DNA of 64,000 bases from Diploscapter coronatus (taxonomy: Eukaryota > Nematoda > Chromadorea > Rhabditida > Rhabditidae). The notes beneath the pieces are model-generated. The model was not told where the DNA came from and did not search any database. It was given only the letters and a program-made list of their open reading frames with translations. The translations under genes and the position numbers were made by a program. The stretch spans positions 53,095,201 through 53,159,200 of the forward strand of contig OZ038422.1 in the NCBI GenBank assembly GCA_964036155.1. Direction: 5' to 3'. This document shows, piece after piece, positions 7,236-30,053 of the stretch (the stretch's first letter is position 1; every line of letters begins with the position of its first letter).

Positions 7236-8846
7236 CTATAAAATAAACCTTTCAAAATAGCTATTAATATGGCACCGTATACACCACCTACAGAATTTAG
7301 CGATTCGATATTAGTTAGTGATTAATATTCCTAATGTAGTCTGTAACAACATTATATATGTTACTTTGCCAGCAAAATGGTGTTATTCAGTGCCGCTTCA
7401 CCTGTAGCTTATGCATCGTATTGCATTTTAGATTATTTGTTTCGTCTGGAAAAAGCTGATTACAAGCCTGTGATATGCTTATGTGATTTTGCATTCTCAC
7501 TAACTAATGAATTCAGTGTAATTATATGAACAATTGGAATAACAATTAACACCTGCTTACCTTTGAAAAATTTGCTCAAATTATCTAGTGAACTTGAAAC
7601 GTAGCACTTTGTAGACCACACTATGTGTATAGTTGTGCAAATTTAACGAGATGTAATAGCTTTTTGTCAACAGTTTTCCAAAAATTTAATCATTCAAATA
7701 ACGTATGATTTAATATTTTGATTCTCATTAAATATTCCATTATATTTTCAATATCATATATTCTAATGACACTAAAGTAACTAACTATCCAAAAGTGAAT
7801 GATGACTGTAGCTTACAATAAGAGAAAACTAAATGGTAGCAACATAACAAGCTACGAAATGGTGTAAATAGAGAAAGCTATAAATACATCTTTCGGCTTC
7901 ATAACATTTTATAAAATGTTACGTTACAATGCTATTATTTTCCAAATTATTAATGAACAATCTGGAAACCACACGACATACGGAATAGCATCAATTTGAA
8001 GAGAGTTATATCATGCATCTTTCTTTTCTTCATACCATTTTCATTTTATGCATGCCACGTTGTCACGTACTTTCCAGATTGGCAAAAATTGTCGGTATTT
8101 TAGATGTCGCTCCGAATCGAGAATGATATCCCTCAAATGTCGTGGGACTTCGGGCGAGTTGATATGTACAGGAGTTTCGATAACTGCGCCCCATATCAGT
8201 GGGTGTGGGCGTCGAATGGGTGTGAATCACAAATGGTCGTATATTTGGCTATTTAAAAATAATTTAGGATTGAAATTTAAAAATATGTAAATAAAAAATA
8301 CTTATCAAATTTTCGAAAATTTTAACCTCATAATTGTTTGAATTTTGCATTTCGTTGTTGATCAAAGATTATAAAGAATAAATTGGGAAATCGAAGAAAG
8401 AGGTCTTATCTCAAGAGAACAAAATTTATCAAATAATCACGGAGAGTTGGCATTTGCCTTTTGTGTGGTTTATAGCCTTAAGCAGCGTTATCAGACAAAT
8501 CATGCAAAAGTGCAGTCTAATTGATTCATCGATTTCATTCGTAAATTCCAAATTCACATTGATGTCATAGTTGTCGATCTATTTCTTGTCTACTCATTAT
8601 CGAAGATACCCCGCCATTTCCATTTATGAATTTATTCTTATCTCACCTTGTGATTGTGATGCTAGTAGTCCGCATGAAATTCTCTATTTATTGCGAGAAT
8701 TTCGCATTTATCAGTGAAGAATCCAAATTATTTTGCCAGACGCTTTCAATATTTCCTCTCGTGTTAGTGTATTAATATTTTTAGTTATATATTCCACAGC
8801 CTTTCATTCCATTATTTCATTTTCGAGATTGCAGATAAACATCAAA
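7236..8846. promoter_or_regulatory. Divergent intergenic region, 7TM / arrestin 1
   Basis: The 1.6 kb between two divergently transcribed genes should contain both promoters. I see no conserved motif that I can name, no RNA gene and no coding exon. An open frame at 8048-8290 on the plus strand has no signal peptide, splice context or family likeness. The last 100 bases before 8847 are pyrimidine-rich and include a TTGCAG at 8829-8834 that could be the arrestin's leader-acceptor site. Confidence 0.45.
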
Positions 8847-11290
8847 ATGCTCTCAATTGAATTCACAAACAGTCCACGCGGAGTCTATTATCCAGGAAGC
8901 GTGCTGGAAGGAGTCGTCAAGTTGGAGCTGAAAGAGCCTTTGAAGGTTTTTCTTAATTTCTTTTATTTCTTCGAAACTCATAATTCGGCAATCTTGTAGT
9001 TTTAAAACTTAAGTATGAAAAACGCTAGAAAAATTCGCTGTTTTCGATATTCCACAGTAATTATATTATTATAAGTAATAAAGATAAAATTTACTATGCC
9101 ACGAAGGATGAAATTCCAGATTCGAGATATTAAACTTTGTATTGACGGACATGCAAAAAATCACTGGGACAGAACAGAATCTAGGACTGTTTCGTAAGTC
9201 ATAATTGTGAAACATTTTAAAATAAAGATGAATTTCAGGGACGGAGAAGGGTACGTAAGGAAATTTCAACGAAGATCACCCTTTTTCCAAAAACTAGTAG
9301 CTAATGTGCTATTTTAGAGGAACCAAGTCTGAGAGTTATACTGTCAGCTACAGTGCGAAAATCCAGTATGCCGACGGGCATAGCACCATCTGGACGAATA
9401 AAGGATCAAATTTGCCTGTTGGAAAGCACACCTTTCCATTCAAATTTCAAATTCCGATAAACTGCCCGCCAAGCTTTGAAGGTACGGATTTTTGGGACTA
9501 TTTAAAGGAAATTTCTGATGCGCGTTTCGGCGAAATAACATTGATAATTTCATTATCATTTTTTTATAAAAAAAAAATTGAAATTTTCTGATTATTTTGC
9601 TGAATGCATGAATTTAGGTCATTACGGACATATCCGGTACCGAATTCATGCCGAAGCTGAACGAGCGTGGTGGTTCAACAAACGAGCTCAGCGACTCTTC
9701 ACAGGCAAGTTTTAATTTGACGACTTTTAAAGTTTCATATTTTCAGTCGCCCCTGCATTCGATTTAAACACGATTCCTCGTTGCGCAATTCCAATGAAAC
9801 AGGAGGTTTGCAAGAAGACAGGATTTGCGTTGAGAAGACGAGGGAATATCACTTTGGAGGTAATTAAAATTGATTAGCAAAAATTTTTATAACTATTTTA
9901 GACTCGCCTGCAAAAATCCGGATTTGTTCCTGGAGAAATCATATACGCAGAATGCTTCGTCAACAATGAAAGCTCGAAGAAAGTATTCAGGGTAAATAAT
10001 TTGCTTGATTCGTTGACTCAAAATATTTTATTTCAGCATATTTTTCAGAAAATTCAGAAGAAATATTGACTAAGCTGATAATAAAATTTTGAATCATTCA
10101 TCTGATCTTGTATTTTCTGATGATTTTTTTTTCCAAATTTCAGGCCTCTGCGGAACTCTTTCAATGTGCTGAGTTTATCGCATATGAAGGCGGATGTGGA
10201 AGTGCTACGTTTCACAATCACAGATACGTTGGGTAATTCCAATTATTAACAAATCTTAGAAAATACTCAATTAATTTAGAACTCATGAACAAAAGAGCTC
10301 AACTTCCACAATCTCATGTCTAAATCAATCGATCAATATTCCTCCCAAGTCGAAAGGATCTTTCGTCATCAAGCTGCCCGTCAGAGCCACAGTCTCATCA
10401 TTCAATTGCTGTCCGATCACCAAAGTCGATTACTACCTCAAAGTATGTGACTTTTAACAGTTCATGGGTAGAATTAGGAGAATAGTCATCAAACATTTTA
10501 TGCAATTCATTTTATACGAACTTCACTTTATAGACGTTAACGCTAGGTATAATCAGAATAGGTTTTTATTTGATTTTTCTCCGATATATTAAAATTTTCA
10601 TAGTTTAGGTAAAAATCGAGTCTGAAACGAGTGTGTCGAACACGATCAAGAACAGATTTCCAATTATTATTGGGACACACCCCGTTCGTTCTCAGGCTCT
10701 TACATTGGCTCCGTTGGTCATGCCGGCAAAGGGCGATGACTCTTCGTCTTCAGCAACCAACCCAACAGCACCTCCCGAATATCCTCAGCCAGCCCCGCAA
10801 CCGACTAACTTGCCAGATCGTAAGCTTATAAAAGAATAAACAAATTTTAGATTGGGTTATTTTGAATTGGCGTTTTTGTCATTCACTTATCATCAAAAAT
10901 CAATTAGGACGCGTTAAAATTGTGATTTGTTGAACACCAAATTTCTTTATGAAAATTTTAGTGAACGAAAAAAAGAAATGATTTTAAAAATTACATTATA
11001 AAATTTGAGAAGAAATTCAAAATTATCTTAGTGCCTCCGCCAAGCTACGAACAGGCTGTGTATGGAAATACGAGACCAAAATCCGATGAGCTCGACGTAA
11101 GATTTTCTCGAGTTTTCTTTTTAGAATTTTGCGAATTGAAATGTAAAAATTCTAATTTTATTTGAAATCGAAAATTCAGGGCTTCCTACCGCGCTATCCA
11201 GTTTACCCAAATCTGGACTCCTATTTGGGAACGAACAATGCAACGAAAGAAGAAGAAGATTTACCATCCGTTTCGACGATCAAATTGTAG
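8847..11290 (+). CDS. Alpha-arrestin (ARRDC-like) 1, PPxY-bearing
   Basis: Adaptor of the arrestin-domain family, cytoplasmic, expected to link membrane cargo to ubiquitin ligases. Twelve exons in phase (8847-8945, 9120-9193, 9239-9250, 9318-9481, 9618-9704, 9747-9859, 9902-9991, 10144-10232, 10280-10442, 10609-10819, 11032-11096, 11180-11290) give 425 residues. The N-arrestin lobe shows the Y-x-P-G-x-x-L-x-G-x-V signature and a P-P-S-F-E-G turn. The C lobe shows the S-G-F-x-P-G-E stretch and the IKLP / VDYYLK block. The tail carries two PPxY motifs (PPEY in exon 10, PPSY in exon 11), known ligands of WW domains of Nedd4-type E3 enzymes. One intron (9705-9746) has a GC donor and one exon is only 12 bases. 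The paralogue at 14968-17055 has the same exon order. Confidence 0.93.
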
Positions 11291-11752
11291 ACAAATCTTG
11301 CCATCGAAATTCAATCGATTGTGTGAACGCACTAACTAACTCGTTTCAAGTACTCTTCAGTATAATTGAAATCGCGCGATATAATCAATCAAAAATGTCA
11401 TCTTTATATTGGCGATGCTACTTTGAATTGAACCCAAAATGAAAAGATTAGTCTGCCTGTTCTTTCTACGTGCAATTTAACATTATTAAATTATTCGTTT
11501 TTTGTTTCAAATTTTACGAAAGTCTATTTTCGGTTTGTACTAAATAAATGCCTTCCATTCTATTCATTTCATGTTTAGTGAACACATTATTTGAAGAGGT
11601 GAATTCTACTTCTAATGCCATCTTGAATGCTTGAATTAAAATTCGATCAGCGTTTTGATCAAGTCATAGTTGTGCGTACTCTTTCGGGAGTCTAATTCGT
11701 AAATATCGCTGGATTCTACTCGAATTTCTTTTTTAGAATTTATCTATTTGTT
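11291..11752. other. Arrestin 1 3' region and SLC6 upstream region
   Basis: A poly(A) signal AATAAA lies at 11543-11548, about 250 bases past the arrestin stop, so the left half is a likely 3' UTR. The remaining 200 bases should hold the SLC6 promoter. A TTTTTTAG acceptor-like site ends at about 11736, 17 bases before the SLC6 start. Confidence 0.55.
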
Positions 11753-14413
11753 ATGGAAAAAGCTAATGAAGAGAAGCTAATACGAAAACCTGAAGTTGAT
11801 GGAAAAGATGAATCGGATCGGTTTGATTCTTGTTTTGAAGCATAATTTTAGATAGCGTTTTAGAGGTCAATGGAAGGGGAAATTCGACTTCTTGATATCT
11901 ATGATTGCGTATGCCGTCGGCCCAGGCAAGCGTCTCAACCTTTTTCAATCAAAGAATTTTCGACCACAGGAAATGTTTGGAGATTCCCCTACATGTGTTT
12001 CAAAAATGGAGGTGGTTCGTTTTTGGTTGCCTATGCGGTCTTTTTCACATTTTCCGCAGTGCCGATTTTCGCAATGGAAGTCACCGTTGGGCAGTATTTC
12101 CAAAAAGGATCAATGGAGATTTGGACAGAATATGCACCGATCTTCAAAGGTAAGAGTATTTTATTTTATTGAGTTTGGAAGTGAACTTCGATAATTTCTG
12201 AATCACACATTTAAGAATTTTTGAAAAAGGAATAAAAATCTTTAAATCTCTACCCTTCAACAAATTTATACTTTTATCCTAGGGGTTGGAATTGGTAATA
12301 TGCTGATCTCATTTTGGTGTACAACTTATATTTGCGTGATCATCGCATGGTCACTGTACTATTTGATCCAATCGTTTAGCTATACGTTTCCATGGGAGAC
12401 TTGTGACAATTATTGGTAAAAAAACGTTATCCGAAATTTTCGAATTTTCCTTCAGGAATAACGCGTATACATGCATAACTGGAAGAGAAAATGCAAGTCA
12501 GTTGGCACAAATCAAGTTTCTAGCAGCTCAATCCAATGTTTCGACTCAAACTTCGGTGGAACAGTATTGGGAGTGAGTTTGGAATATCAGAATTACTAAA
12601 TTAAAATTTTTTGAACTTCATGTCATCGTAACGGGATTTTTCCTCGTCGAAATTGTCTGAGATAGTCAACATCTAGGAAAAATTGAGGTATATATTCAGA
12701 AATCGCGTCCTTCAGCAAACTGACAGCATCGATGACTTCGCTGGGATTCAATGGGAATTACTTCTTCTTCTACTGTTGGCCTGGACGATAACTTATTTTG
12801 CGCTATGGAATGGCATAACCGAAGCGAGAAAAGCAAGAAAATCGAGTTTGCCTTTCTTCAACTGTAATTTTAGTTTGTATACTTCTGTGCGCTGTTCCCC
12901 TACTTTTTGATTGTGGTTCTTTTGATTCGCGGGTTGACGTTGAAAGGAGCCTCTACTGGGATCTATTACTATTTGAAGCCAGATATCACTCGACTAATGG
13001 GGACTCAAGTCTGGCTGGACGCAGGCACACAAGTAATTATTCCTCGACGATTCCAAAAATCCTCCCAATAAATCAACAATTCAGGTGTTTTATTCCTATG
13101 GACTTGGGTTTGGTTCACTGATTGCATTAGGATCTCATAATAAATTCAATCACAACTGCATCAGGTAACTTCAATTTCACTAATTTTTTGAGGTTAATGT
13201 TTAGAGATGCAATCGTGATGTGCTTCATCAATGGGTCGACCTCGATTTTGGCGGGATTTGCAATATTTTCAGTGCTGGGATATTTATCAGTAACCTCTGG
13301 AAAAGATATCGCTGAAATTGCAAAGCCAGGTCAATTTTCATGTATCGTATATCGTTTTCACATTAGAATTAAGTCCGAAATTACTAATTCAGTTTCTAAA
13401 ATTTTCAGGCGTCGGCTTGGCCTTCCTCGCCTACCCAGAAGTGGCCAGCAATTTGCCGATGAAGCAATTCTTCGCATTCCTCTTCTTTCTAATGCTTACT
13501 ATCCTTGGGCTTGATAGCAATGTAAATTCAATTTTTTCTTAAACGTATCTAATCTGCTATCAGGTTTGCACTTTGGAAGGACTTGTAACTTCAATTGAGG
13601 ACAGATTCCCAGTTCTGCGAAAGCACAAAAGGATATCACTTGGAGTCATCTGCCTGATTTTCTTCATTCTAGGACTGCCAATGGTTACAAGGGTATTGAA
13701 TAATTTGAGAATTTTGAAATAAAAATCGCGGTGCAGAGATGCAATATCACGGAATGTTCATTCACATTTTATTCACGATATTCACGAATTTCTAAAGATC
13801 ACCCGATTTTAGAGCGGAGTTCACTGGCTAACGTTGGTCGATGCATACGGGTGCTCCGGATACGCTTTACTATTCGTTGTATTTTGGGAGGTCGTCGGTA
13901 TTTCATATAAAATCGGTCTTTGAAAATTCAGCAAAAAAAATTGATGGAGTCATTCTAGGGATGAAAAGAATAAGGCTAGCTGTGAAAGAAATGATTGGAT
14001 TTACTTTGCCGAAAATAGCCGACTTCATATTAATGATAGTTTCACCAACCATTAGTTTGGTGAGTAATCGGAATAGTTATTTTAGTTCAATTCGTTTTCG
14101 ATTTATGAAAATGTTTACTCTATAGATTCTCTTTATCTTGTGCTTGGTTTATTACAAGCCGATCAAATACCCCAATGGAGCAGACTATCCACTTTGGGCA
14201 ATAATTCTTGGATGGTGTCTTTCGCTATCTTCGATTCTAATCATTCCTGGATACGCCATTTACTATCTACTTGGCAAGAAAAGAAATCAATCGTTCGAGC
14301 TGGTATGGCATTTTGATAATCGCGAAATCGAAGAAATTCCAGAATGTTCGTGGCAGTCGTGGAAAATCGCTGGTGAATGGAAACGATATTTCAAATGCAA
14401 AAGCAAAGAATAA
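11753..14413 (+). CDS. SLC6-family Na+-coupled transporter
   Basis: Twelve-helix plasma-membrane symporter of the neurotransmitter/amino-acid transporter family. Fourteen exons give 599 residues, the usual length: 11753-11820, 11864-11925, 11970-12149, 12283-12415, 12456-12572, 12700-12832, 12874-13032, 13085-13164, 13205-13329, 13409-13521, 13564-13692, 13813-13897, 13932-14059, 14126-14413. Helix 1 contains [16 protein letters not shown], the most conserved block of the family. The extracellular loop 2 Cys pair (ETCDNYW...YTC), the helix 7-8 region and the GLAFLAYPE and GLDSN segments are all present. At the site where monoamine carriers have Asp (VDLGN) this protein has Gly (VGPGN), which points to an amino-acid or GABA/glycine-type substrate; this is inference. 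Two introns (11926-11969, 12833-12873) start with GC. The joint 13897/13932 is abnormal (see findings). Confidence 0.93.
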
Positions 14414-14967
14414 AGAGGAACCACTACTAGTTGAAAGCAATAACTAAATTTGACGAAATTAGGATGTCATTGTTATTAATTCGACGGCCTAATTTATTGT
14501 TTCAACGCACTGAAACTCAATAAATATGTTCAAATTTGAAAGATTGAATGGAAAAACTAAGACAAAACGACAAAAAATAAATAATTTCTGATAATATAGC
14601 TGCAATGGTAGTCTAAAATATCATGCAAATAAAAACCAACTGGTGCTAGCTTAAATTTGTCAAAATCATATCGAAGTTTACTGACCTAAATTTTGGCAAA
14701 TTCCCCATTCTCAATTAGCATTTATTTATCTATCAAACTTCACTCTTTTCACAATAAGTTGACGACTCGACGCGTAGCAGCTATGATCAGTTCCGTTTCT
14801 TATCTAACTGAAGAATGTGCTATTTTCGATTATTCATCGTGTTTTATCGATTTATTTGCTATATCGATCATGCCTCTTTTTTCTGATTGCAAATTTTAGA
14901 AATTTTCGCACTATATTTCTCAATGGATAATTTGATTTTGAAATGATTATGTTTATTTCTGATTTAG
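14414..14967. other. SLC6 3' region and arrestin 2 upstream region
   Basis: AATAAA at 14519-14524, about 105 bases after the SLC6 stop, is the likely poly(A) signal. The rest is AT-rich and should contain the arrestin 2 promoter. TTTCTGATTTAG runs directly into the arrestin ATG at 14968, so the start codon sits right at a 3' splice site, as expected for trans-splicing. Confidence 0.55.
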
Positions 14968-17055
14968 ATGGATCCGAAGAAGATCAATATCGAATTCACG
15001 GACATTTTCGAGGGTGTGTACAGGCCTGGAGATGAATTGCGTGGAGAGGTTCGATTTCATTTGAATCAGCCAGTAAAGGTATGATCATTTTTGCTGACTT
15101 TTGGGTAGCTATTCATTTTCGATAAAAAAATTGACTGTGTTTGTCGACGGTTTCGCAGAAAATCAATGGACCTGTAATGAGGAACGACAGTTTATGTTAG
15201 TTTAGGATAATTTTAATCTGAATTTAATTATTTTAATTTCAGTGTTAACGAAGGGTATTTTTACATTTGTACTTTTTAGGTAGTTTTTCCTTCGAATTTC
15301 TCATTTTAATTTAGAGGCGTTAAAAAGACAAAGACGAAAATCGAGCATGTAGTCTATTCATCAAAGATTCAATATTGTAACTCCAGCTTTAATCTGTGGG
15401 AAGGAGATTACTTACCCAGCGATGATTACACGATGCCCTTTCGATATACGATCCCTGCGAACTGTGCGCCTAGTTTCGAAGGTGAGTTTTCGCGTAATTA
15501 TTGTAGTTGACGAAAAATGATTGGAAAATGTTCTGATTTTGAAATTTCGTGTTCGATTTTCACTCCTCAAAACTCAATTTACCTCTCATTGATTATGAGT
15601 AACATCTATCATTTCATCTTAGGACAATACGGATCCATTACCTATAAGGTGATCGTTAAAACTGACCCAATATGGCGCTCGAAGAAGCAATGTGAGAGGT
15701 TATTCACAGGTGAATTATTTCTTCTTCATTCTAGTACTTGGGTCTTTTCAGTGCTACCCTGCTTCGACTTGACGAAAGATCGGAGGTTTGCAAATCCAAT
15801 ATCCAAATCCGAATGTCAAAACACTGGGGTTCCTTTGTTCAGATGCGGAAATGTTGCAATAGAAGTATGTGCTAGCTTCTTTTTTAATTTCTCAAAATTA
15901 ACAATTTAGTGTAAATTGTCGAAATCCGGTTATGCATCTGGCGAGGATATTCTAGCCGAATGTTCCATCGATAACGGATCCACCAAACCTGTGCAACAAG
16001 TTAGTTTTCCTAGCTCTGGACAATGACGTAAATTTTTGACATTGTCATCAGAGCTGAGACGAAATTTCGATTTCTAATTTGAAAATTTCAACTTCGTTTC
16101 AGCTCTGGTTGTCATCATACAGATTGATGACATTGATCGACTTTCCTAATTTTACATCTTCATTTTTAAGACTAATTAATGTTTATCTAGGCTAAGGCTG
16201 AGCTGATTCAGCACGCCAAATTCATAGCTTATAAAGCTGGCAATGGGACGGCGACGTTTTTGAATAAGAAGGAGACGACGTATTTTTAATTTTTTTCCCA
16301 AATTTATTATGGTTTGATAAATTTAGACAAAATGAGATGAAGGAGCACGATATTTTGGTTTCATCGAGTGTCAAAGACAACATGTCCATCATGCCGAAAA
16401 CGAAGCACGACTTCATCATCAAATTGCCCGTCGTTCCGACTGTTCCTTCGTTCGAAAAATGCAAAATCATCAACGTTGAATACTATCTGAAAGTGCGTGA
16501 ATTTTATTTCACAAGTATTTTTTCGAAGTTTCCAAAAGTATTCATTTGTGTAGTGGTGCGTACGAACACAGATATTGATTTCAGTGTCCGCGTCCGAAAA
16601 GTGTTCAAAATTTTAAGTTCTGCATTTGATTTTTCCCTTGCATTATTCTGGTTTTGCGTAAATTTAATCAATTAATTTTTTTTTAAATGGGTAAATTCTT
16701 TTCAGATAAAGATTAAAACGGACGCGCTGATGAACAATTCCATAGTGGTACAAATTCCAACCACCATAGGGACAGTTCCTATCTGGCCTGCAGAGGCGCC
16801 AAATCAACCGGGCCAACCGTCCGCTCCTTTCTCGGAAAATGCGGACCGACAATACGAAATAGTACCAATGCCTCCACCTACCTCTACGATTCCATCGACA
16901 TTCCCACCAGTGCGTTCAAACTCGACTGAGCAACCCCAAATCGGATGGTCCCAAATTCCGATGAGTGCAGGTACGATTTATTCAACCAATTCATTTTAGT
17001 TAACTATCCCTCTTTAGATTTTCCACCAACATATGATGAGGCAACGAGGGAATAA
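14968..17055 (+). CDS. Alpha-arrestin (ARRDC-like) 2, possible exon-2 frameshift
   Basis: Paralogue of the arrestin at 8847. Exons 14968-15078, 15109-15195, 15243-15254, 15315-15481, 15623-15709, 15752-15864, 15910-15999, 16191-16279, 16327-16492, 16706-16970 and 17018-17055 match the first gene one for one, including the 12-base micro-exon, up to the last three exons. About 407 residues. The Y-R-P-G-D-E-L-R-G-E-V signature, the A-P-S-F-E-G turn and the IKLP / VEYYLK block are intact. The Pro-rich tail ends with FPPTY, a PPxY ligand for WW domains. Exon 2 is one base too long to stay in frame: the only usable acceptor (15106-15108) leaves a 30-base intron, and a run of seven A (15124-15130) would fit if it were six. 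This could be a sequence error, a polymorphism or a disabled allele. All other phases fit. Confidence 0.85.
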
Positions 17056-17301: not shown

Positions 17302-20300
17302 TCAAATCACAATATTCTTTCCTCTATTGTTAGATGCTGTAACTCGCTTTTTCTTCGTAAATCCTTGGAATGAAAAATGAATCAGAATCGCACACAGCGT
17401 ATAATTCCAGCGGTTAGCTATCAGAGTTGCCTGAATATTCACTTCAACTCTCTACATATTTCTATTGGGGTATTTTAATCTTACAATTTTGAAAAATGCG
17501 CGAATTTTGGCATCCATGTCACGCGTATCACTAATTCCTGGAAAAACTTTCTTTAAAATCGTACTGGTATCATAACGGTAGTCAAGTAGCTTGAAGGATA
17601 TCAACAGACACATGAAATTAACTAACGCCTAAATTATTTCATATCGAACTTATTTTGAAGAAGACAAATTCACCTGCGCCGCCAACAAATTGATCATTTT
17701 TCGCTGCATTTTTCGAGTTGCCGAGATAGAACTTTCAAAAATGTGGAAGTGAACTTTGAAAGATATTACAGAAAATAGGCACAGGAATACCGAAGTAATG
17801 CCTATATTGAAATTATCGGGACGACCCTAAATATTACATTTTGGAATTTGTTCAGAATGGATAGATTACATATTCCGGCTGAATTATTAGAATACAAGTC
17901 GTAGAAATTAGGCTAGCTCCAAGTAAAAATATGATCCCAGTTGTTATCTTTTTCAGCACCGACTCACTAAAATACAATCAACAATTATGAATTCTATGAT
18001 ATCTTAGAATTATCAATAATTTGTCACGTGAGAACTTCGCCTATTACTATGAAAATAGGTTGAGAAAGGCCCTAAATTGCCTACCCTGTTGAAATGGCGA
18101 AATTTTTACGTGATAACTTTACCTAGAATCTCAACAGAATTTTTTTTTTATCAATTTTTGAAGAATGTATAATTTAGAATTCTTGAATTTTTTATTTTAG
18201 ACATTCTTCTCTGATAAAAATTGATCATCATCGGAAAAGTCCACTTTAAAGAATATGCACTTTCTCACAAAGAGATTTCAAACTTTCAGAAGAAAAATGT
18301 AATTATTCATTGAAATAGTTGGTTAAATCTAACCTGATCATATAAAACGATCGTCGAATTGTGATGACAGCTTCTACGATGAAGAAGGTGTCGAAAAGTA
18401 GATATGACCAATCTTTGAGCTTATTTTTGAAGCCATTTTGGGTCTCCTGATAGAGTTGTTCATCGTAAATGTAAAAATACTAAAATAACAATCTCGATAA
18501 CTCAGTTTTTCCCAAAATAAAATGCTTACTTCTGGAAATAACCCATTTATGATGACGATAACTAGTCCACAAGCAGCCTCGAAAAATACGAATATCAGCA
18601 ATGTGTTGCCTCGAATTTTATTATTGATCCATATTCGATAGAGAAAAAGTGAGTATGATACAACTCCAACTATCGCGCAGGAAACAATTTCGATTATTTG
18701 CAGAGTGAGCGAAATCGGTGCGAGGTAAAAATCTAGAGTATAAACTTTTGAAAAGAATAAATCGAAACGACAAGTATTTTTATCTTTTTTAAATCAACGT
18801 AAATTCTATTTTACATCCTCGAAGAAATTTTTTACTCTTTTTCTCGACATTCAGAAGAATAGACTTACAACAACTATTAAAGTTTTGTCGAAGTTCGATG
18901 GGATTTCCATTGATATCGACTATTTTGCAAATATTCAACAGATCCAATTTAGGGTTGTTCTCGGCGTGCATCAGAATTACCGGCTTGAATTCAGTAGTAT
19001 AGTCAATGTCGAATTTGATTGAGGAACTAATCATAAAAGTTGTCAGATTGTGGTTATTATCAATTTGAAACAATCGGTAGAGCTTATCATTTGCTACCAT
19101 AATTCGGAGTCTGATAAATTGAAGGGAGGTGAAATTCAATACTTCCAAGTTTCTAAAATAGGAATGAGAATTTCGTCATATTACGATTTATGTTTATTCA
19201 CTTTGTTCCTTTGACAATTATCCTTCCATAAACTTCGTTTAGCGATGATAGTTTTTCGTTCGTTATGAAGTGTTCAGTAAATTGAGTGATTAATAGACTT
19301 TCGGTTAAAATTTGACAATCATTTCGCTCCAAAAACTCATCGAGATTGCAGATGATACCTTGAATTTTGATAATTCTCTTAGTTGTCAACCGAATCTCAC
19401 GTTTTTCTCCACAAATAATGGCTTCGTGCATGTAACTATGCATGTACAAATTATAGTATTCGTTCAGTGTTAAGCAAAGTTTTGAATTTCCATAGATGTA
19501 TATAGTCAATAGGTCTACCAACTTGTCAAATCCTAATCTAGTTAAATTCAGATTATTCGCGATGTAAATTTGCCATCCGTCTGAAATCTAGGAATGTATC
19601 ATCAAGTCTAGAAAGCATACGTCCTCGACTTGCTAAACCGCCACCAATACTTTCGAAATTCCTAAGGAAGCTGAAGTTTGAATGAGTTAAATAAGACAAG
19701 GAAAGTCCTCCGGCAATCGATTGTACTTTTGAAAATTTCTTCTCCAAATCCTAAATTTCTCCTCCTATTATTTGATAGACCTTTTACTTCTTATTATTAA
19801 CATCTATAGAACTAAGTCTCTATAAGTAAATCTTATTTGCAGTGGCGTTCAAGAGTTTTGAAGCCCCTATTAATTTGCATTATGCTGATTTCGTTACGTA
19901 AAATACGCTGATACATATGAAGTTGTGCAAGATTATTGTGATAATCTCGACAACAAAAGCCGGCAAAGCTCAGCTCGAACGCAACTTCGCAAATATGTCA
20001 ATTAGCGCACATAATCACAGTGATCAAATTCATTTAGTTCAAGCATATATAACTCAATTTTAAACATTGCTACCTGATATGGCTCATCTTCAACTATAAT
20101 ATATCCAGCTTCAATGGAATTACATCCATTCGGGAGTTTTAATGAACTCAGAACACTAGTCGTACTTGCGTAGCACGATTTATTGCCGTTGTGCTAAATT
20201 TCGTCTTACATTCTTATATTTTTTGCATTCATCCCTCAATTTTCGATATGAATGAAAGGAATTCGACCAAAATGAAGTAGCAGAGTTCAAAATTGGTTTT

Positions 20301-20510
20301 GAACATTTTCACTACATATGCAGATTGCCTTTTCATTTTTCTTTTGCAAAATTTAGCATACTTCTTTCAAACCGAAAATCGAGAAAATTTCTGCCATACA
20401 TTCTCGATTCGTACTTCTGAGTTGCTAACAACTAGTTTTTGTTCGTTAGTAGCATTTACTTTAGAAATATCATAAAATAGAAAAGGGATAATCACCAATA
20501 GTTTATTCAT
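17302..20510 (-). CDS. Receptor A: L-domain ectodomain + 7TM (subtype 1)
   Basis: Twelve exons in phase, 635 residues: 20400-20510, 20074-20193, 19621-19750, 19401-19580, 19202-19358, 18815-19152, 18530-18732, 18334-18479, 17870-17966, 17674-17826, 17485-17628, 17302-17430. A signal peptide (about residues 1-20) precedes a secreted part (to about 345) built like the receptor L-domain of insulin/EGF receptors: C-x-x-I, then G-G-L-x-L and F-L-R-N repeats, a second module opening at I-C-N-L-D-E-F, and a double Cys (CC) near the end. Seven hydrophobic segments follow (about residues 352-625). Helix 3 ends in I-R-R-S and helix 6 is preceded by R-K-M-Q-R-K-M-I-N-L-L, as in nematode serpentine chemoreceptors. 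Likely a cell-surface sensor with a protein or peptide ligand; ligand and G-protein coupling are unknown. Closest relative in the window is C (24437-27303). Confidence 0.82.
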
Positions 20511-20650
20511 AGAAAAGATTAGGGTACACATATACAAAAAAAAGTTATAACCATGAAAAAAATCAAGTTTATATAGCTCCTTGGTAATGACTAATAAACT
20601 TCACACAATCATCTGCTCATTTTTCATTATCACAAGATTTACACATCGAT

Positions 20651-23600
20651 TCATTCTCGTGTAGACTTAACATTATACAACTTTACGAGACACCGAACCA
20701 GAAGAATATCAATAGTTGTCGTAATAATGTGATGAAACGAGTTGTATGACGAAATTAACTAAAGTTTTGTATATTGAAAATTATTGAACGTAAAATTCAT
20801 ATAACGATTTTTCTCTGTTATTACTTAAGAATCTATACATTGGCGATCAAAAGTTTAAAAAAATGCGTATTTTTAAAAAAAGATTGATTATCGAATCTTT
20901 TACAGTTGAAATGGGTGAAACTTAGGATATAAATATCAATTGATATCGTCTAAAAACCTCAAAAGGTTGTATCATCAATAGAATTCTTAGGAGAGAATGT
21001 CAGTAAGAACCAAAGTCGATATAAAAAGGGGTCCGCAAATAGGGCTGGTTTTCGCATATGTTGTTCAGTTTTTCACGCTGATTCTCATAGTGATAACCGT
21101 TTTTGTTGAAAATCGACTACTGTAGCTCGAAAGATTTTCAGACCCGACCTCGGAAAAAAATCATAACTTTCTTATTTCTAAACCAAATTCGTTGATTCTT
21201 TTGTTATTCGACAACATTTAGTTCATAGGTTATCAGGCGATAAAAGAAGAGTTGGTTGAATTTCTCTACACCACTGTTTGCAAATTTTGATTATCTTATC
21301 CTTGGATAATCTAGGAATTTACAAACTTACGAAATTAAGCTCTGTCAAAATCATAGGCCATCTATAACCACGTATCGAGTCCCTCCATATCAAGTAAATT
21401 CCATTTCCACTTATGAAAATCAAGCTTGAATCCGTTATCGCCTAAATTTGACTCGCATATTATCAGCATTCCAGTTCAAATTCAGTGTTTCTGTGCTTCT
21501 TTAAAATTTTCATTACTATTGCTGATTTTGGAAAAGAAATCTGATTTTCAGGCTGCACAAATTTTCAATTTTACTCAATGTGATTTGAAATTTTCAAAAT
21601 TGAAATTCTGAACACATTCTATTGCACTCATTTTTATCAACATTTGCGATATACGACTTTGGAAATTTTCATTTTTTACCTTAACTGTGCTCAAGTGGGC
21701 TGTTTTCATTAGTAGAGCCCTTTCTTTATCTTTTATCCTTGAATTTAGTCTTAGCAATATATCGAGTGCGATATGAGAAGAGCAAGCAAAGAAGAGTTGA
21801 ATCACTGATACGATTATACACAACGTTGAATATTCCTATGAATAAATATTCTTTGCTAAAAATCAACTAGAAAAATTCTACGTTCATTGAAAATCGGGAA
21901 GTTCTTGCGTAAAGCGAGAGTTCAGGCGGTAGATGGTCGTCTGGATGGCTGTCTAGTTGGGATGAAGTCATTGTTGCCAAAATTGAAACTACGATCACAA
22001 AAATATCCACACATGCTCTATAATGTAGTTTGATATTGAATGGATTTGGTGATTCTCTAAAAATTCAACTTTCCTAATTAATTTTAAAAAATTCAACCTG
22101 CTATAATTCCGATATCTCGAAATACAGAGCATTATAGCCATAGAAAATTTGATAATCGTTAGACAATGAATGACATTGATGAATGTTTCATTTTTGTTCA
22201 ATTGTAGATTAAGTATAGACTTTTCGTAAATTCCAAACTTCTCGTCAATGATCTAATTTAAATACTCATTAGGCATAGGATATTATTTAGCTGACCGTAA
22301 ATGATAAAGTTCGGCTAAGGCAGAGAATAATATCCAGCAGAAACATCTCAAGAATGAAATCATGTTTCAACAATTTTGTGCACTTGATAATGCACAAAAT
22401 TAAATATGTGCAAAGTAAAATTGAAACTACCGCATGTACACACGAGAACAAGTATTGGAAATATTTTCGGATCTTCGATGGAAATCCTTCTAAAAATTTG
22501 TGTAAAATATCTATCAATAAAAATGATCTTTCAGTGGAGATTTCTAAAAATAATCATGACTTTATACAGCTTGAATTCAAAGCTACTCCAGACTAGGAAA
22601 TATTATTTTTGAGTTACTTCATTCCTTTATGCTATTTCACCAATGATCATCAAATTTTAATATTCATCTGATACAGATTTCTTGGCAGATTAGACAATTT
22701 CGCAATCCAATCCATTCTATCAAATCGGAGCGGGTTCAATAAACTTGCACAAAATGAAATTTCACTCACCACAATCTGCTGCATTTAGGCTCTCATCAAC
22801 ATCTCCATAATTCGATGCAATTACTTCACAAACCGTGGATTCTATTTTCAGCTTTGGATTATTCTTTACAGTTAACGTCGTTTGTGCATTCATATAATGA
22901 AAATCGTTGATGCTTTTCAAACTTGTCATCAAAAATGAGTTTAGATTCTTATTGTCCTGAATGTTGATAGCGCCACCAAAATTAAAATCTTAATTTTTTT
23001 TTTATAAGACTCGTCGTTTTTGACTAAATTATAATCATCACTCACACGCAAAATTTCGTTGTATGTAAATCGTATGGAGTTTCGGAATGGTAAAATTTTG
23101 AATAGTCGTATTTATCATTAAAATCTCCCCCATGATAATTTCCGTATTTGATAGAAGCTGAATAATAGCCTATAGACTAGTATGAAAAAATCAAACTTCT
23201 TGGGCTCTTTCATAGTTTTCGTCCTTTATAACTATCGATCCAATCATCATTTTACAATTCGTGACGAGTTCTACGAGAAAGTGAGACAGTAATGTGAAGC
23301 ATTGGTACATAGAAAAATGAGATTTGACTTTTCGAGACGACCAAAACTAGTGCGTTGGTATCGCCCATTTTTGCAAAAGAAAAATTAGCATATGTAACGC
23401 GTTTCTGGGACTTCTCTGATCATATCCACTAGTTTTCAGCCCGAAAAGTGAACTTTATTTTTATGTACCAAGCTGTTCACTTTCTCGTAGAGTTCGTCTT
23501 ATATCATCCAAGGTAATACTTTCCATTTTATACCAAAAGCATTGATTCTCTGAAGTTAAATTACGCGGCTAAATTCTCGATTACTCAAAATCACCACCAT

Positions 23601-24211
23601 AATCACATATCTTGACTTCGTTCAGTAAGTCCACCCCCTGGCTGACATATTTGTTCAATTCTTCTATCGAAAGACATAGTAGGGGTGTGTTGTAGAGTTG
23701 CAAAGTCGTATGTCCGTAAAAATTCTCTAATGATGATAGTCCTAGTCGCTCAAGATTTATCGCATCGTAGATGAATATTGATACGCTCCAATAACCTATA
23801 ACCAGTAAACGAACTTATTTCTAATTTCTTCCATACTCTCAGCAATAATTGTTTTCATGTTTCGAAGGAACGATAAATCCTTCCCCTCATATCCCATTAT
23901 CAATAAGCTACCATAGATTATCTCAACTGATGACAGCTTCTGTTCCGCCTGGAAATTAGAAATAAATGACAGTTTTGGAAGGTAATAATTTCTCACTAGT
24001 TCTGCATTCCATCTCGTAATTCTAACGTCTCCTTCCAACTCTGTGCAATTGTATGGGAAATGCTTATAGGATATTGTTTCTGTCACGATGCATCCTTATA
24101 TTTGTCATGAACGATAATTTGATAAAAATGCTTACTTTTTGAATCTAGTAGTGAAAAATTTTCCAACAATAATAAGGAAACTAGGATCGCATTACGCATG
24201 TTAGCTGTCAT
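20651..24211 (-). CDS. Receptor B: L-domain ectodomain + 7TM (subtype 2)
   Basis: Fourteen exons give 606 residues: 24136-24211, 23997-24094, 23837-23948, 23595-23795, 23520-23549, 23197-23270, 23046-23157, 22770-22988, 22296-22489, 22098-22252, 21882-22056, 21680-21835, 21331-21441, 20651-20758. Signal peptide, then an L-domain start (N-C-T-E-L-E-G-D-V-R-I), F-L-R-N repeats, a second L domain (G-G-A-I-N-I), a closing A-D-C, and seven hydrophobic segments from about residue 322. Helix 3 ends in S-R-Y-R. Exon structure matches D (27514-30053) except that one D exon is split here by an inverted-repeat element whose end supplies the acceptor. The last intron also holds a repeat fragment. Because both insertions can be spliced out in frame the gene may still be active; without RNA data a decaying copy cannot be excluded. 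Confidence 0.78.
20985..21240 (+). repeat. Diverged fragment of the fold-back repeat family
   Basis: Lies in the last intron of receptor B (20759-21330). Its core TTGTTCAGTTTTTCACGCTGATTCTCAT and the following stretch up to a CGACCTCGG(A/G)AAAAAAT box match the left arm of the large fold-back element at about 56856-56970 and, inverted, its right arm near 58255-58385. Only one arm is present here. Boundaries are approximate. Confidence 0.8.
23263..23498. mobile_element. Inverted-repeat MITE inside receptor B
   Basis: About 236 bases. The left end GACGAGTTCTACGAGAAAG and the inverted right end GACGAACTCTACGAGAAAG differ at two positions, and the similarity continues inward through GGTACATA to ACTTTTCG, so the whole element can fold into an imperfect hairpin. 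No transposase. No clear target-site duplication is visible. The paralogous exon in D (29240-29364) is uninterrupted, so the insertion came after the B/D duplication. The minus-strand end reads TTTCTCGTAG and serves as the splice acceptor in my model. Confidence 0.85.
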
Positions 24212-24436
24212 GAATATTTTAGCAAAATCAGCTAGTCCCCGTTTAAGATTTTCTTATTTTGTTAGTTTATGCGGTGCTTTTGATCAATATTTTCTACTTA
24301 CAAGATATCACATTTTCACCTGCGTTTGAAACCATTTTGCAAATTTAGAAATCCTATTAAAATATACTTTCATGCATCAATATTATAAATTGAAAGAAAA
24401 TATCATGTGAGGGGGCTAAAATATTTATTTTTGAAC

Positions 24437-27303
24437 TCAATTAGACACAATTTTGGAATCCCTAAGAGTTATGACAGAGTTATTTCTCTTCTTCGTGAAT
24501 CCTTTGAAGGAGAAATGCAGTAGAAGTGAACAAAGTGTGTAATTCCAACGATTCGCGGTATGACTTGCCTGAAAATTCATTTTTCGTCAACCTAAGACTA
24601 ACTTTTGACCTACAATAATAATAAATGACTTGATAAAGTCAGCGGAATTTCTTATGAAATTGAGTTTTAAAGATATCGCATCGATATATTCGGGCAGTTT
24701 GAATGAAATCAATAAGCATGTCAAATTGACCAAAGACTAAATTATTTTGGGTTATAAAATCAATAAAATTTTTATCCTATCATTGGAACACCTGTAAAGT
24801 TAGTAAATTGATCATTTTCCTCTGTTGTTTTCTGGTGGATGAAATTGAGCTTTCGAATAAGTGAAAATAAACTTTGAAGGATATTACAGAAAATAGGCAT
24901 ACGAATACCGAAATCATCCCAATCGAAAAATTATTAGCATCATTCTAAAGAAGATAACTATCTTTTGAAATTTGCTTATTAGTTCTCACGGCTGATCCTG
25001 TTAGAATAATGCATAAATTTGAAACTAAACTTGTTAGCATCAAAACTATAACCGAAATCGTAATATTTTTCAACACACCATCGCTAAATTTAAATCTCAC
25101 TCTTATATTAATACGAAAATAACCTTACCTCATCATGCAAAATGATCTTCTCACTGTAATAATAGTTTCAATTATGAAGAACAGACTACATAGCAAGTGC
25201 GAAACATAAACGCTATTGCCAACGTTTTCAATTTTTTCTAGTCTTTTGTAGGTTTTTTGATGGTTATAATACTGAATGAAACGCATTGATTAGTTATTCT
25301 TTTTAGAAATATCTTACCTTTGGAAATACTCCATTCATTACGACTATTAACAACCCGCATATTGCTTCGGGAGCCACGAATTTCAACAGATTATTGTATC
25401 TGATATTATTGTTTTTAAAGATTTTGTACAAGAATATCGCAAATGATATAACACCAATAGTTGTGCAAATAAGAATTTCGATCATTTGTAGAGTCAGTGA
25501 AATTGGTGATTTGTAAAAATCTGAAGTTTCGTAATCATGTTTACTCCGAAAAATAGTCCTACAGCAATTATTCGCATTTCTGGACAATTTAACTGGGTGA
25601 TTATGAAAGTTGAATATTCCACAGATGTTCGATAAATCCAAGTTAGGGTTATCTACCGCATAGAGAAATATCATTTCCTCATCACTTCCTTCAATCATAA
25701 TATGGTGCTTATATACTTGCACGACGATGGATTCGTTCATAAGAATTGCTTGTAAATTTGGATTATTCGCGACTTGAAACATAATGAATGAGACTGTTGA
25801 AAACATAGCAGCGATTCGTGGTTGAAATATTTTAAGTGAGGATAGGTCCAGAATTTTGAGATCTCTAAAAGAATTCTAATAGTCTAATTCAATTTGTAAG
25901 CGATTTGGATTCTTTGGCTATTTCAATGCCCAGAAATTTGAAGTTTTATATTCTAATCAACGAAAAAGTTCGCTTCTTCATTGCTATTTCGTCTATGTAA
26001 AATTTCAAATCGCAAAGAATCCAAGTTGCCTATTTTATAGTCAACAGACTTTGTATCGGATACAACTATTCTTCCATAGATTTCTTTCAATTTGGATGAT
26101 TTTTGTTGCGTTATGAATTTCTCGGTATCAGGACTGATAAGCAAGCTCTCTGTTAGTATTTGGCAATCGTCCCGACTTAGAAACTCTTCGAATGTACAGA
26201 TAGTGCCTTGAATTAAAAAATTGCGAAATATTAACATATTTCACTTACGATTCCTCTTATCGCATATGAATGCACCATCATTAATATAACTCTTTTTGTA
26301 TAAAGAATTATATTCTTTTTGAGTTAAGCAGAGTTTCGGATTATCACTGAAATACATGAAGTCGATGTCATCCAAATTTGACATTCCGAATCTAGTCAAA
26401 CCATGGTTAGACCCAATGTAAATATCCCATCCGTCTAAATGATAATTTTCGATAGTAATTTATTCGCTATTATTTGTCAGAAGAAAAAAAATGAAATTAT
26501 CGAATGTTTGCATAAACCATGATAATAGAAAATTTTACAAGTGATAAAATTATAAAGATTCATGTTTATGCACTGCATGACTATCGTGTCTATTTTAATA
26601 TAAGCGTAACCTATCTCTCGATAATTATCTGTATATTCCATGATAGGTGTATTGAGAATTTTTAAAATCAACTACAAAATTCGAGGTCATATATATGTTC
26701 GAGCTTCATAAATTGGAGATTAGAATCTCCAAAATCGTCAATTTCATAACGAGAAAAAATAGGGTTGTATTCTATTAGAAGAAATACGTTGTTTAGATAC
26801 TTACAGCCTCGAACCATTCTATATCCAAATACGTTCTTCAAGTTTCGAAAGAAACTAAAATTCGACACTGATAGATTTGTTAACGACAATCCTCCTTCAA
26901 TTTCGATAACTTTAGAGAATTTCTTCTCGAGATTCTAAATTTTACTACTAAATCAAACATATAGGTTTTGTAAACATCAGAAAAATATTTTCATTGGAAA
27001 TTTTGTTCTAATCTACTAGTACATTACTTTATATAGTTCATCTTGGACTACCAAATAACCCGTGCTGATAAAATGACACCCATTGGGTAAGGCTAATGAA
27101 CTCAAAACTGCATCTTTTTCAGTTTTGCAATATTTCTCTTCTTTCTTTGTCTAAAATTAGTCATTTTAGATTTACAAAAAATTAAAAATTCTGCATACAT
27201 TGACTTGAACCTCGGAAGAATTATTGATAGTCCTTCGCTCCTTGAAACCGTGAATGTTGAAGATGCTGTTTATCAAGTTAATCAATAAGAATAATTTATT
27301 CAT
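24437..27303 (-). CDS. Receptor C: L-domain ectodomain + 7TM (subtype 1)
   Basis: Eleven exons in phase, 630 residues: 27199-27303, 27028-27150, 26805-26934, 26249-26434, 26050-26206, 25318-25864, 25129-25271, 24990-25083, 24792-24944, 24614-24736, 24437-24568. Same order as receptor A: signal peptide, L-domain modules with F-F-R-N and D-N-P-K-L-C-L repeats, I-C-T-F-E-E-F, a C-C pair, then seven hydrophobic segments. The 547-base exon 25318-25864 encodes, without interruption, the end of the L-domain ectodomain plus helices 1 and 2, which is direct evidence that ectodomain and 7TM region belong to one protein. Helix 3 ends in V-R-R-S; helix 6 is preceded by Q-R-K-M-I-N-L-L. The donor after 26050 (GTCTGT) is weak. 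An in-frame 24-base block (25518-25541) bearing GT and AG ends replaces an intron of A. Confidence 0.85.
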
Positions 27304-27513
27304 CAATTAGAGCACGTCGTACAACAAGCGTAGCGATACTTTGCAAAGCATATCAAATTAAAATTTTGAACACTACTTTAGGAGAAAAAAAAGAAATGTA
27401 ACTAGAAAATATGAACTTAAAAAAACTGGGGAATGTTGTTGAAGTTAGATTACAATTTGCAATTGCATCTGTCATTTTTGTCAGCACGAGAATTTTCGAA
27501 GTTTCTTATTTTT

Positions 27514-30053
27514 TCATATCGATAATTTTGCAATGCATCTAATCAGCCGGATTTCGATAATAATAGAAATCGTGTGATGGAACGTTTGGTACGAAGACAT
27601 TAACTGAAATTTCGCAATATACAGCACCTAGAACAAATATTTCATATCGTGATATTTTGAGAGAACGTGGTTCAACTTTTTTAGTTGAAGTCACTTTACA
27701 ATAGTTTATTCATATGCATATTTATTATTTAGCTTTTTCAATAAATGGCTCTTTTATAAACTTACAAAGTTAAATTCGGTGAGAATTCGAAGCCAATAAT
27801 AGCCAGGCAAAATAAGAATCAAGATCGAATAAATTCCGTTGCCACTGATAAAACCGACGCTGAGATCCTTTCCTGCCTAAAAATTGTCATAATTATCTGA
27901 TCAAAATGATGGCACTCTTATACTTTGAGTGTGCACAGATATGATGATTTCATTATAGATGTTCTCTGAATATCGTTCATCTTATTGTTCGTCCTTATCA
28001 AAGTGTCAATTGCAATGTGAGATGAGCAAGCGACGAAGAATTGCACTGTTGAGATCGCAATACAAACAGTTGAATATTCCTACAAGTATTTGAAATGCTC
28101 CACCAAAATATTACATCAAATTTTTACATTTAAAGAAAATGTGATACGACGCAGATCTATATAATCACCAATGTCTTCCAATACATAAGTTGTTGCAAAT
28201 TGAAAAGCTAGAAATATCGACAATCCGATAAAGAGCATGTCCAAACATATCCTATATAATATTTTGTTTTTTACTAAATGCATCGTATTTCTAAAATATG
28301 GGAAAATCTGATTAAATCTAAGTCTATTTTATCACACTTCTTATGAGATGCATATCTCACAATAAAATATCCTGAAGATATTAAAAACTGGATGATAACA
28401 ATTGATTGGATAATGTGCTGGGAAAATTCATCGTCGTTTAATTTCAAACCAAAGAATGGTTTTTCATAAACACTAAATTTCTCGTCAATGATCTAAGATG
28501 TTAAACATTTTTTTAAAAAATTGATTAAATTTTACTGTGAATGATATTGTTGCACGTCCAATACACAGCGTAATGTCCAAGAGGAACATTTCGAAAAGGA
28601 ATTCATATCTGAGCCATTTGATATTCGAACACATCAGAAAAATCAAATAAAAGCAAAGTAAATATGACACCAAGATATTAAAGTAGACGAAAGAATATTG
28701 GAAATATTGTCGAAATTTCAATGGAAATCCCTCTAAACGTTAAATTTGAGATTTTTTTCAATTTTAATCGTTTCGCAAACCGCAATCCGATCCAGTTCCT
28801 TCTTCATTGATGTGTCCATAATTCTCTGCAATCACATTACAAAACGAGGATTCCATTTGCAATTTCGGATTATAGCCAAAGTCTATAAATAGTTGAGCTC
28901 TATCGTGTATGTCGTGAATTAGCTTTATATTCGGAATTGATAATGAACGCAGTTTTGGATTTTTGTAAATATTGATTGAACCGGTAACTGAAAGTACTTA
29001 TTATCATGATTTTTTAAATAAATTTTATTTGATATATAATATTTTTAATTAAAATCATCATAAATAATTTTACATGAATATTTTCTTTGCGTGAATATAG
29101 TGTGCAGCTTAGGAAGCGAAAAATTCTGGATATCGGTTTCCTCAATATAAATCTGCCCAACTAGAATTTCAACATTTGACAAGAGCTGAATTTTAAATTA
29201 GTTTCCTCTTTCTTTCTTTCTTTCTAATGCTTGGGTTACCTTTTGAACCTTTTCATAGTTTTTGTCGTTTATTTCAATAGCCCCAATCATAACCTGGCAA
29301 TTCAGTGTGTCAGATGCGTCAGCACTTTTTTTCACTTCATACCAATCGCACTGTTTTTCCGAGTCTTTAAATGTTCATATCTTCTGAAAATAATACTGCA
29401 AGAATACCGTAATCGCATAGCCAGGCCTCGTTTAGCATATCGATCCCATAATTTGTATATTTGGCTAGTTCTTCGATCGTTAGGCAGAGCCTTGGGGTAG
29501 TGTACAGTTCAAAGGCCCACATTACATCGAAGTTTACCAATGAAGATAAACCAAGTCTCTCGAGATTAACGGCATCGAAAACGAATATCCCGATACTGTC
29601 TCCATCTAAACTTTAGAAAATAAGAAAAGCGAGTCAGGAAACTATCCCTCCTCACCATCAGAAACGATAGTCGTCAGATTGCGAAGAAACGACAGGTCTT
29701 TTCCATCATAGCCAAAAATCATAAGTGTTCCGTAAATTGCTTCGACTGAAGAGAATTTTCGTTCAGCCTTAATATTTTTATTCTTCGATGGCAAGATTAT
29801 GGAATAGACCAACCAATCTTGAATTCCGTTGTGTTATTTGTACATTTCCCTCTAGTTCTGTACAATCGTCCGGCAGATATTGCAATGCCATGTGCTCTGT
29901 CATAATGCATTCTAAAACTGCTCACTTCTTCTGGCGTTAGATCAAGAAGATCCACATACTTTTTCCATGTGATAGTGAAATGAGTTGGACTAGAGAAAAT
30001 ATAAACTGGATGAAAAGATGCATTTTAGGCATCATAATTAGATCATGAATCAT
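27514..30053 (-). CDS. Receptor D: L-domain ectodomain + 7TM (subtype 2)
   Basis: Thirteen exons in phase, 605 residues: 29960-30053, 29814-29911, 29656-29767, 29408-29605, 29240-29364, 29074-29185, 28781-28987, 28536-28732, 28338-28492, 28128-28290, 27924-28079, 27766-27876, 27514-27603. The N-terminal ATG could also be one of three further in-frame ATGs within ten codons; all leave a signal peptide. The ectodomain has D-C-T-E-L-E-G-N-V, F-L-R-N, N-C-Q-V-M-I-G and G-S-I-N-I-Y-K-N-P-K-L modules typical of receptor L domains, closing with S-D-C. Seven hydrophobic segments follow from about residue 322. B is the closest relative, with every shared exon boundary and phase conserved. Spacing to C is 210 bases, short enough for co-transcription, though this is only inference. 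Confidence 0.83.

Follow-up and report, generated by a model that had tools for sequence, protein, structure and literature searches.

Receptors of the insulin receptor (DAF-2) and epidermal growth factor (EGF) receptor (LET-23) type are single-pass kinases with Cys-rich domains, and nematode chemoreceptors, most of them small seven-transmembrane (7TM) proteins, form a very large set. In the leucine-rich repeat (LRR)-containing G protein-coupled receptors (GPCRs), or LGR, such as the glycoprotein-hormone receptors, a protein ligand is bound by a large solenoid ectodomain set on a 7TM core, a plan analogous to the one described here. The IRLD (insulin/EGF receptor L-domain) proteins of C. elegans form a large family without known ligands that is prominently expressed in sensory neurons (PMC9262388). 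In a survey of C. elegans secreted families (PMC3534327), 51 L-domain proteins are counted, most of them without a recognisable transmembrane domain, and room is left for uncharacterised transmembrane ones. Here we describe four genes of the nematode Diploscapter coronatus, designated A to D, that are predicted to join an L-domain ectodomain to a seven-helix membrane region. The genes lie in a stretch of 64,000 nucleotides (the window; C1:53095201-53159200) of a 169.7 Mb genome assembled in 3 contigs, with C1 at 87.7 Mb and C2 at 82.0 Mb.

The receptor cluster occupies window positions 17302-30053, with all four genes on the minus strand, and each gene has 12-14 exons and encodes a protein of 598-617 amino acids (aa). 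The predicted plan is the same in all four: a signal peptide, two Recep_L stretches (L1 and L2) and a multi-helix C-terminal half. Gene D (30032-27514; 13 exons, 598 aa) encodes the signal peptide and ectodomain in exons 1-7 (28781..30032) and the seven-helix region in exons 8-13 (27514..28732). The corresponding parts of gene C (27303-24437; 12 exons, 616 aa) are exons 1-6 (25563..27303) and exons 7-12 (24437..25520), those of gene B (24199-20651; 14 exons, 601 aa) are exons 1-8 (22770..24199) and exons 9-14 (20651..22489), and those of gene A (20510-17302; 12 exons, 617 aa) are exons 1-6 (18869..20510) and exons 7-12 (17302..18732), with the stop of A ending at 17302. The splice sites were picked by eye from both haplotypes and from paralogues, and thus the open frames of the models, each of which has a single, terminal stop, prove little on their own.

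The L-domain identity of the ectodomains, proposed in an original prediction made from the DNA letters without database searches, was supported by comparison to Pfam. The Recep_L_domain profile (PF01030) matched all four proteins in two stretches each, at 58.7-85.8 bits compared to a curated cut-off of 21.8 and with E values of 2.9e-24 (D), 4.2e-18 (C), 1.1e-19 (B) and 7.6e-16 (A). PF01030 was the sole family above its cut-off, with one weak match below cut-off to a domain of unknown function (DUF) in A among matches listed to E 10. No tyrosine kinase or furin-like (Cys-rich) domain was matched by Pfam in any of the four proteins, nor was any LRR, 7tm_1, 7tm_2 or GAIN/GPS family. Eight ectodomain cysteines are found in matching order in all four. 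A PDB search with D gave LET-23 as its best row, at E 0.3, and a homology search with C among predicted proteins scored 7993 candidates with none at E ≤1, in a collection that may hold no nematodes.

The two halves of each protein are, as predicted from the gene structures, one gene product. The original prediction had concluded that the fusion is not an artefact of joining neighbouring genes, on the grounds that a single exon of C at 25318-25864 runs from the ectodomain through helices 1 and 2. This exon proved to be mistaken: the stretch spans from the start of exon 6 to the end of exon 7 and includes a 42-bp, phase-1 intron (25562-25521) that remains in frame, and the stretch 25864-25318 is open solely because this intron carries no in-frame stop. 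On contig C2 the intron of the C copy is 44 bp and the frame shifts there, and at the corresponding site A, B and D also carry introns in phase 1. Thus, the single-exon argument for the fusion fails. The conclusion itself stands on other evidence, namely a phase-1 junction common to all four genes, short junction introns in C and D and, in A, B and D, the absence of any start codon ahead of helix 1. In all four genes the junction donor follows the last ectodomain cysteine in phase 1: after ..GSDC in D (intron 28733..28780; 48 bp, and 47 bp on C2), at 25521..25562 in C, after ..AADC in B (22490..22769; 280 bp) and after ..FNSC in A (18733..18868; 136 bp). On both haplotypes the junction introns of C and D measure 42-48 bp, which is too little for an intergenic region to fit. 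Upstream of helix 1 in A, B and D, the frame back to the nearest stop codon contains no Met; C falls outside this check, as its frame is open through the intron.

Support from a second copy was provided by contig C2. The genome of D. coronatus is described as 170 Mbp with 2n = 2 and 5.7% heterozygosity (PMC5483258). C1 and C2 appear to be homologous haplotypes, judging from collinear pairs of L-domain matches and a DNA identity of about 91% over the cluster. The C2 haplotype carries D and C only, with no allele of A or B, so that independent (allelic) support covers D and C and the models of A and B rest on homology with these two. The start of D common to both haplotypes is at 30032 and not at 30053. 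GT-AG is kept on C2 in 23 of the 23 introns of D and C (12 of 12 and 11 of 11, respectively) and the length differs in 14 of them, while the reading frames are preserved; the sole exon indel between the alleles is 2 bp, just before the stop of C. The ratio of nonsynonymous to synonymous substitution rates (dN/dS) between alleles was 0.20 for the ectodomain and 0.12 for the 7TM half of D, and 0.24 and 0.17, respectively, for those of C. The median over 6760 allelic pairs of D. coronatus is given as 0.12 in the genome report (PMC5483258). Judged by these ratios, both halves of D and C are under purifying selection.

A/C and B/D are paralogous pairs that are 47-54% identical, a divergence far above that of the alleles (90-95% identical), and the duplication of the pair is therefore older than the haplotypes. 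Behind C on C2 are remnants of A exons 11 and 12, the only parts of A left there, that are 78-95% identical (window 17600-24200 compared to C2:49791500-49791800). These remnants point to a loss of A and B from the C2 haplotype by deletion. In gene B an insert with 22-nt inverted arms (23263-23284 and 23477-23498) has to be spliced out. This insert (23263-23498) is possibly a small transposon that is now most of an intron (23271..23519), with the acceptor of the model inside one of the inverted arms.

The C-terminal halves were examined for topology by hydropathy, with helices of A to D counted at a threshold of ≥1.0 over 19 residues. After the ectodomain, seven hydrophobic peaks were found in D, B and A and six in C, where the seventh was placed by exon homology with A. 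The density of Lys plus Arg was 0.20-0.24 in the predicted inside loops and tail compared to 0.10-0.14 outside in all four proteins (helix 7 placed by hand), which fits an N-terminus outside and a C-terminus inside. The original description of four genes with a signal peptide, L-domain modules and serpentine-type helices was thus borne out in substance by the models, the profile matches and hydropathy, with the seventh helix of C assigned by homology.

Genes of this type are probably not confined to the window, as judged from predicted models elsewhere in the genome. PF01030 gave at least 29 genome matches, in a search that detected a single exon (in B) of the four genes of the window. Twelve stretches were examined, which correspond to 10 distinct loci, two of them sampled from both haplotypes and most C2 counterparts lying outside the sample. 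Genes were modelled with a predictor trained on A to D that, in leave-one-out tests at the best setting tested, placed 37 of 51 exons exactly and called 19 surplus ones, and that was run at a nearby setting. By this approach, predicted L-domain genes were found to run into a multi-helix region at four of the 10 loci (L035 gene 1, L036 genes 1 and 2, L037 genes 1 and 2, and L042), or five of 11 with the window included. A phase-1 junction after the last cysteine recurs in five of the predicted models, with a pair of close paralogues among them; since L036 and L037 are close paralogues, at most three independent subgroups are represented. PF01030 matched the ectodomains of four of these genes with E values of 3.1e-11 to 7.7e-27, in two stretches in three of them and in one in L035, the model of which is incomplete. 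The helices are less sure than in A to D: at a hydropathy of ≥1.5, L035 gene 1 and L037 gene 1 each showed about six peaks, compared to five for L036 gene 1 and four for L042. A fifth helix was added to L042 by hand and this model stops before helices 6-7, and at L036 and L037 the second gene runs off the end of the stretch. Between L036 gene 1 and L037 gene 1, GT-AG is common to all 12 introns, and the one exon gap, of 2 bp, is at a donor taken to be misplaced. On the minus strand of L042, near 2327, the intron expected after ..LQLFK shows GC and not GT, as would be seen for a GC-AG intron or a decaying gene.

The remaining loci were of other kinds. L-domain genes without a clear 7TM region were found at L039, L040/L045 and L043/L044, and the models at L034 and L038 resemble insulin and EGF receptor genes by eye, not by search. 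L041 (C1:9519500-9528500) was considered as a further fusion and rejected, as its 7TM intron phases differ and it is probably two merged genes. At this locus an L-domain gene is followed by a 7TM region with no Pfam 7TM match, an allele is present on C2, and the whole may be one gene or two.

Intron phases were compared across nine models printed exon by exon (A, B, C, D, L035 gene 1, L036 gene 1, L037 gene 1, L042 and L036 gene 2). The junction was in phase 1 and the intron after transmembrane helix 2 (TM2) in phase 0 in all nine. The intron after TM3 was in phase 2 in eight, with the L036 gene 1 model fusing that exon with the next, and the intron in the third intracellular loop (ICL3) was in phase 0 in all seven models that reach it; in L042 the GT expected at this site is missing. 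The last 7TM introns disagree between subgroups, being in phase 0 in A to D and in phase 2 in L036 and L037 and not found in L035. Three gene models of the Str chemoreceptor family from the same genome (L020, L027 and L032) have phases 0, 2 and 0 after TM2, TM3 and TM4. A GT directly follows the ALxxQ motif in eight of 15 Str loci and is absent in seven, the 15 including near-identical paralogues and overlapping loci; this is the site of the ICL3 intron, which in C follows LLTLQ and in A follows LLAAQ. This comparison with Str used a feature chosen after the data had been seen and no formal criterion. The window also includes an orphan 7TM model (7494-5005, minus strand) that has no L domain and no Pfam match above cut-off (372 aa tested). 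Its phases are similar to those of both the L-domain receptors and the Str genes, and thus the pattern is not specific and is no proof of Str membership.

We favor, with moderate confidence, a reading of A to D as single-chain GPCRs of the plasma membrane in which an L1-L2 head senses a peptide or protein. Such a receptor would consist of a signal peptide, L1 and L2 of the insulin/EGF-receptor type found in IRLD proteins, and seven helices with the N-terminus outside and the C-terminus inside. The 7TM half may derive from a nematode serpentine chemoreceptor and couple to a G protein, and the L1-L2 pair would capture an extracellular peptide or protein and pass its binding to the helices, as in GPCRs with an LRR ectodomain. 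Sensing of a peptide or protein is plausible, and expression in ciliated sensory neurons may be supposed by analogy only with the C. elegans irld genes. More tentatively, A to D may belong to a dispersed family of nematode L-domain GPCRs, with ectodomains of the insulin/EGF-receptor type connected to helices of the chemoreceptor type and not to kinases. In such a family, G-protein signalling would report peptides, insulin-like or otherwise, that come from the animal itself or from other organisms, with secreted IRLD proteins as relatives or partners.

Several results weigh against this reading. No Pfam 7TM family was matched in any of the four proteins (in a search whose HMMER filters drop most matches above E 0.1), whereas a control Str gene model from the same genome matched PF10326 at E 7.4e-55 in the same kind of search. 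Comparison of profiles with Str by hhalign was not significant with all subgroups together (E 0.28), and an exon-anchored alignment gave E 0.46 compared to 0.21 for the reversed Str profile. By subgroup, the values were 0.015 at 2.9% probability for A/C, 0.11 for B/D and 0.6 for the others. No Str profile match was found in the window among the genome matches listed. Sequence comparison gave no support for membership in Str, with no Pfam match and with reversed Str scoring better. The original prediction of a nematode chemoreceptor-like 7TM region fits the topology and several intron phases that match Str models, but finds no counterpart in the family profiles. One Str model, L025, has phases of 0, 2 and 2, unlike the other three. 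The three 7TM subgroups (A/C, B/D and the other loci) did not match each other by hhalign (E 0.26-0.35), and the intron-phase pattern is therefore the main evidence for homology of the 7TM halves, whose kinship across subgroups is argued from ectodomain, junction and intron phases. To these points are added the presence of only six hydrophobic peaks in C, the dependence of the models at other loci on a predictor with the error rates given above, and the state of gene B, which may be decaying and partly degenerate: it carries the insert with inverted arms, and its helix 6 reads IWRDSIRGYRW, with charged residues, compared to ILILILPGYYW in D.

Of the alternatives, the one that survives best is that the 7TM part is a membrane anchor or trafficking unit with no role in signalling, the protein binding and sequestering its ligand at the membrane in the way of secreted IRLD proteins. 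The ectodomain frame of B stays open while its helix 6 erodes, and the L domains of the subgroups are still recognised by Pfam while no match is seen between their 7TM parts, as this explanation would have it. However, dN/dS is lower in the 7TM half than in the ectodomain of both D and C, and seven helices would be a costly anchor when the models of the L-domain genes L040, L043 and L045 finish in a single hydrophobic segment; we regard this alternative as rather unlikely. Improbable, in our estimate, is a Str-superfamily chemoreceptor of the ordinary kind, to which an IRLD ectodomain was added that aids dimerisation or ciliary targeting, and which still senses small molecules in its helix bundle. 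The intron positions and phases are Str-like, but the Str profile is not matched, the ectodomains of D and C are constrained and the eight cysteines recur in all four proteins. An inverted channel like the insect gustatory receptors, which would account for the lack of a match to any GPCR family profile, is highly improbable given that the signal peptide and positively charged inside loops and tail of all four proteins (helix 7 set by hand) fit an N-terminus outside and a C-terminus inside and that the intron phases are partly those of Str GPCR genes. Scarcely credible is a false or operon-based joining of an L-domain gene of the IRLD type to a chemoreceptor gene next to it, for although the predictor probably made such a join at L041 (a glycosylphosphatidylinositol (GPI)-like tail, then a 7TM region with other intron phases) and the single-exon argument has failed, the junction introns of C and D leave no intergenic space on either of two haplotypes, the phase-1 junction follows the last cysteine in nine of nine models and no in-frame Met precedes helix 1 in A, B or D.

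Other features were noted in the window. On the plus strand, 7799-16999 includes one or more arrestin-domain genes (PF02752, E 7.3e-16) and a sodium:neurotransmitter symporter gene (PF00209, E 6.2e-143), which were merged in one predictor model. On the minus strand, from about 30500 to 64000, is a tandem array of genes for predicted proteins that are related, begin with signal-peptide-like segments and include motifs such as LIYRDKL, also merged by the predictor; the one copy tested had no Pfam match at E ≤0.05. An Rfam search found nothing in the window.

Compared to described systems, A to D resemble the IRLD proteins in the ectodomain. IRLD proteins likewise form an expanded family with Recep_L matches and no furin-like or kinase match, but are mostly without a recognisable transmembrane domain in C. 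elegans (PMC3534327), whereas A to D add a multi-helix region. The insulin and EGF receptors, DAF-2 and LET-23, use L domains as ligand-binding modules, as proposed for A to D, which differ from them in having neither a kinase nor a furin-like match. Str-superfamily chemoreceptors (PF10326 and relatives) share with A to D an N-terminus outside, seven hydrophobic segments, phases of 0, 2 and 0 (in three Str models) and, at some Str loci, an ICL3 intron; unlike A to D, the Str models of this genome have no large ectodomain, and neither Pfam nor the comparison of profiles matched the two in sequence. The original claim that no described family pairs L domains with a 7TM region holds among the literature matches listed, in which absence is not proof. 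A covalent fusion of IRLD and chemoreceptor types, constrained and predicted at several loci, would link the two families by a Rosetta-stone argument and would offer a signalling readout, built into the protein, by which the ligands of IRLD domains could be tested. LRR-containing GPCRs differ from A to D in the family of the ectodomain and in the LRR and 7tm_1 matches that A to D lack, and an L-domain GPCR would thus stand beside them as an added receptor architecture.

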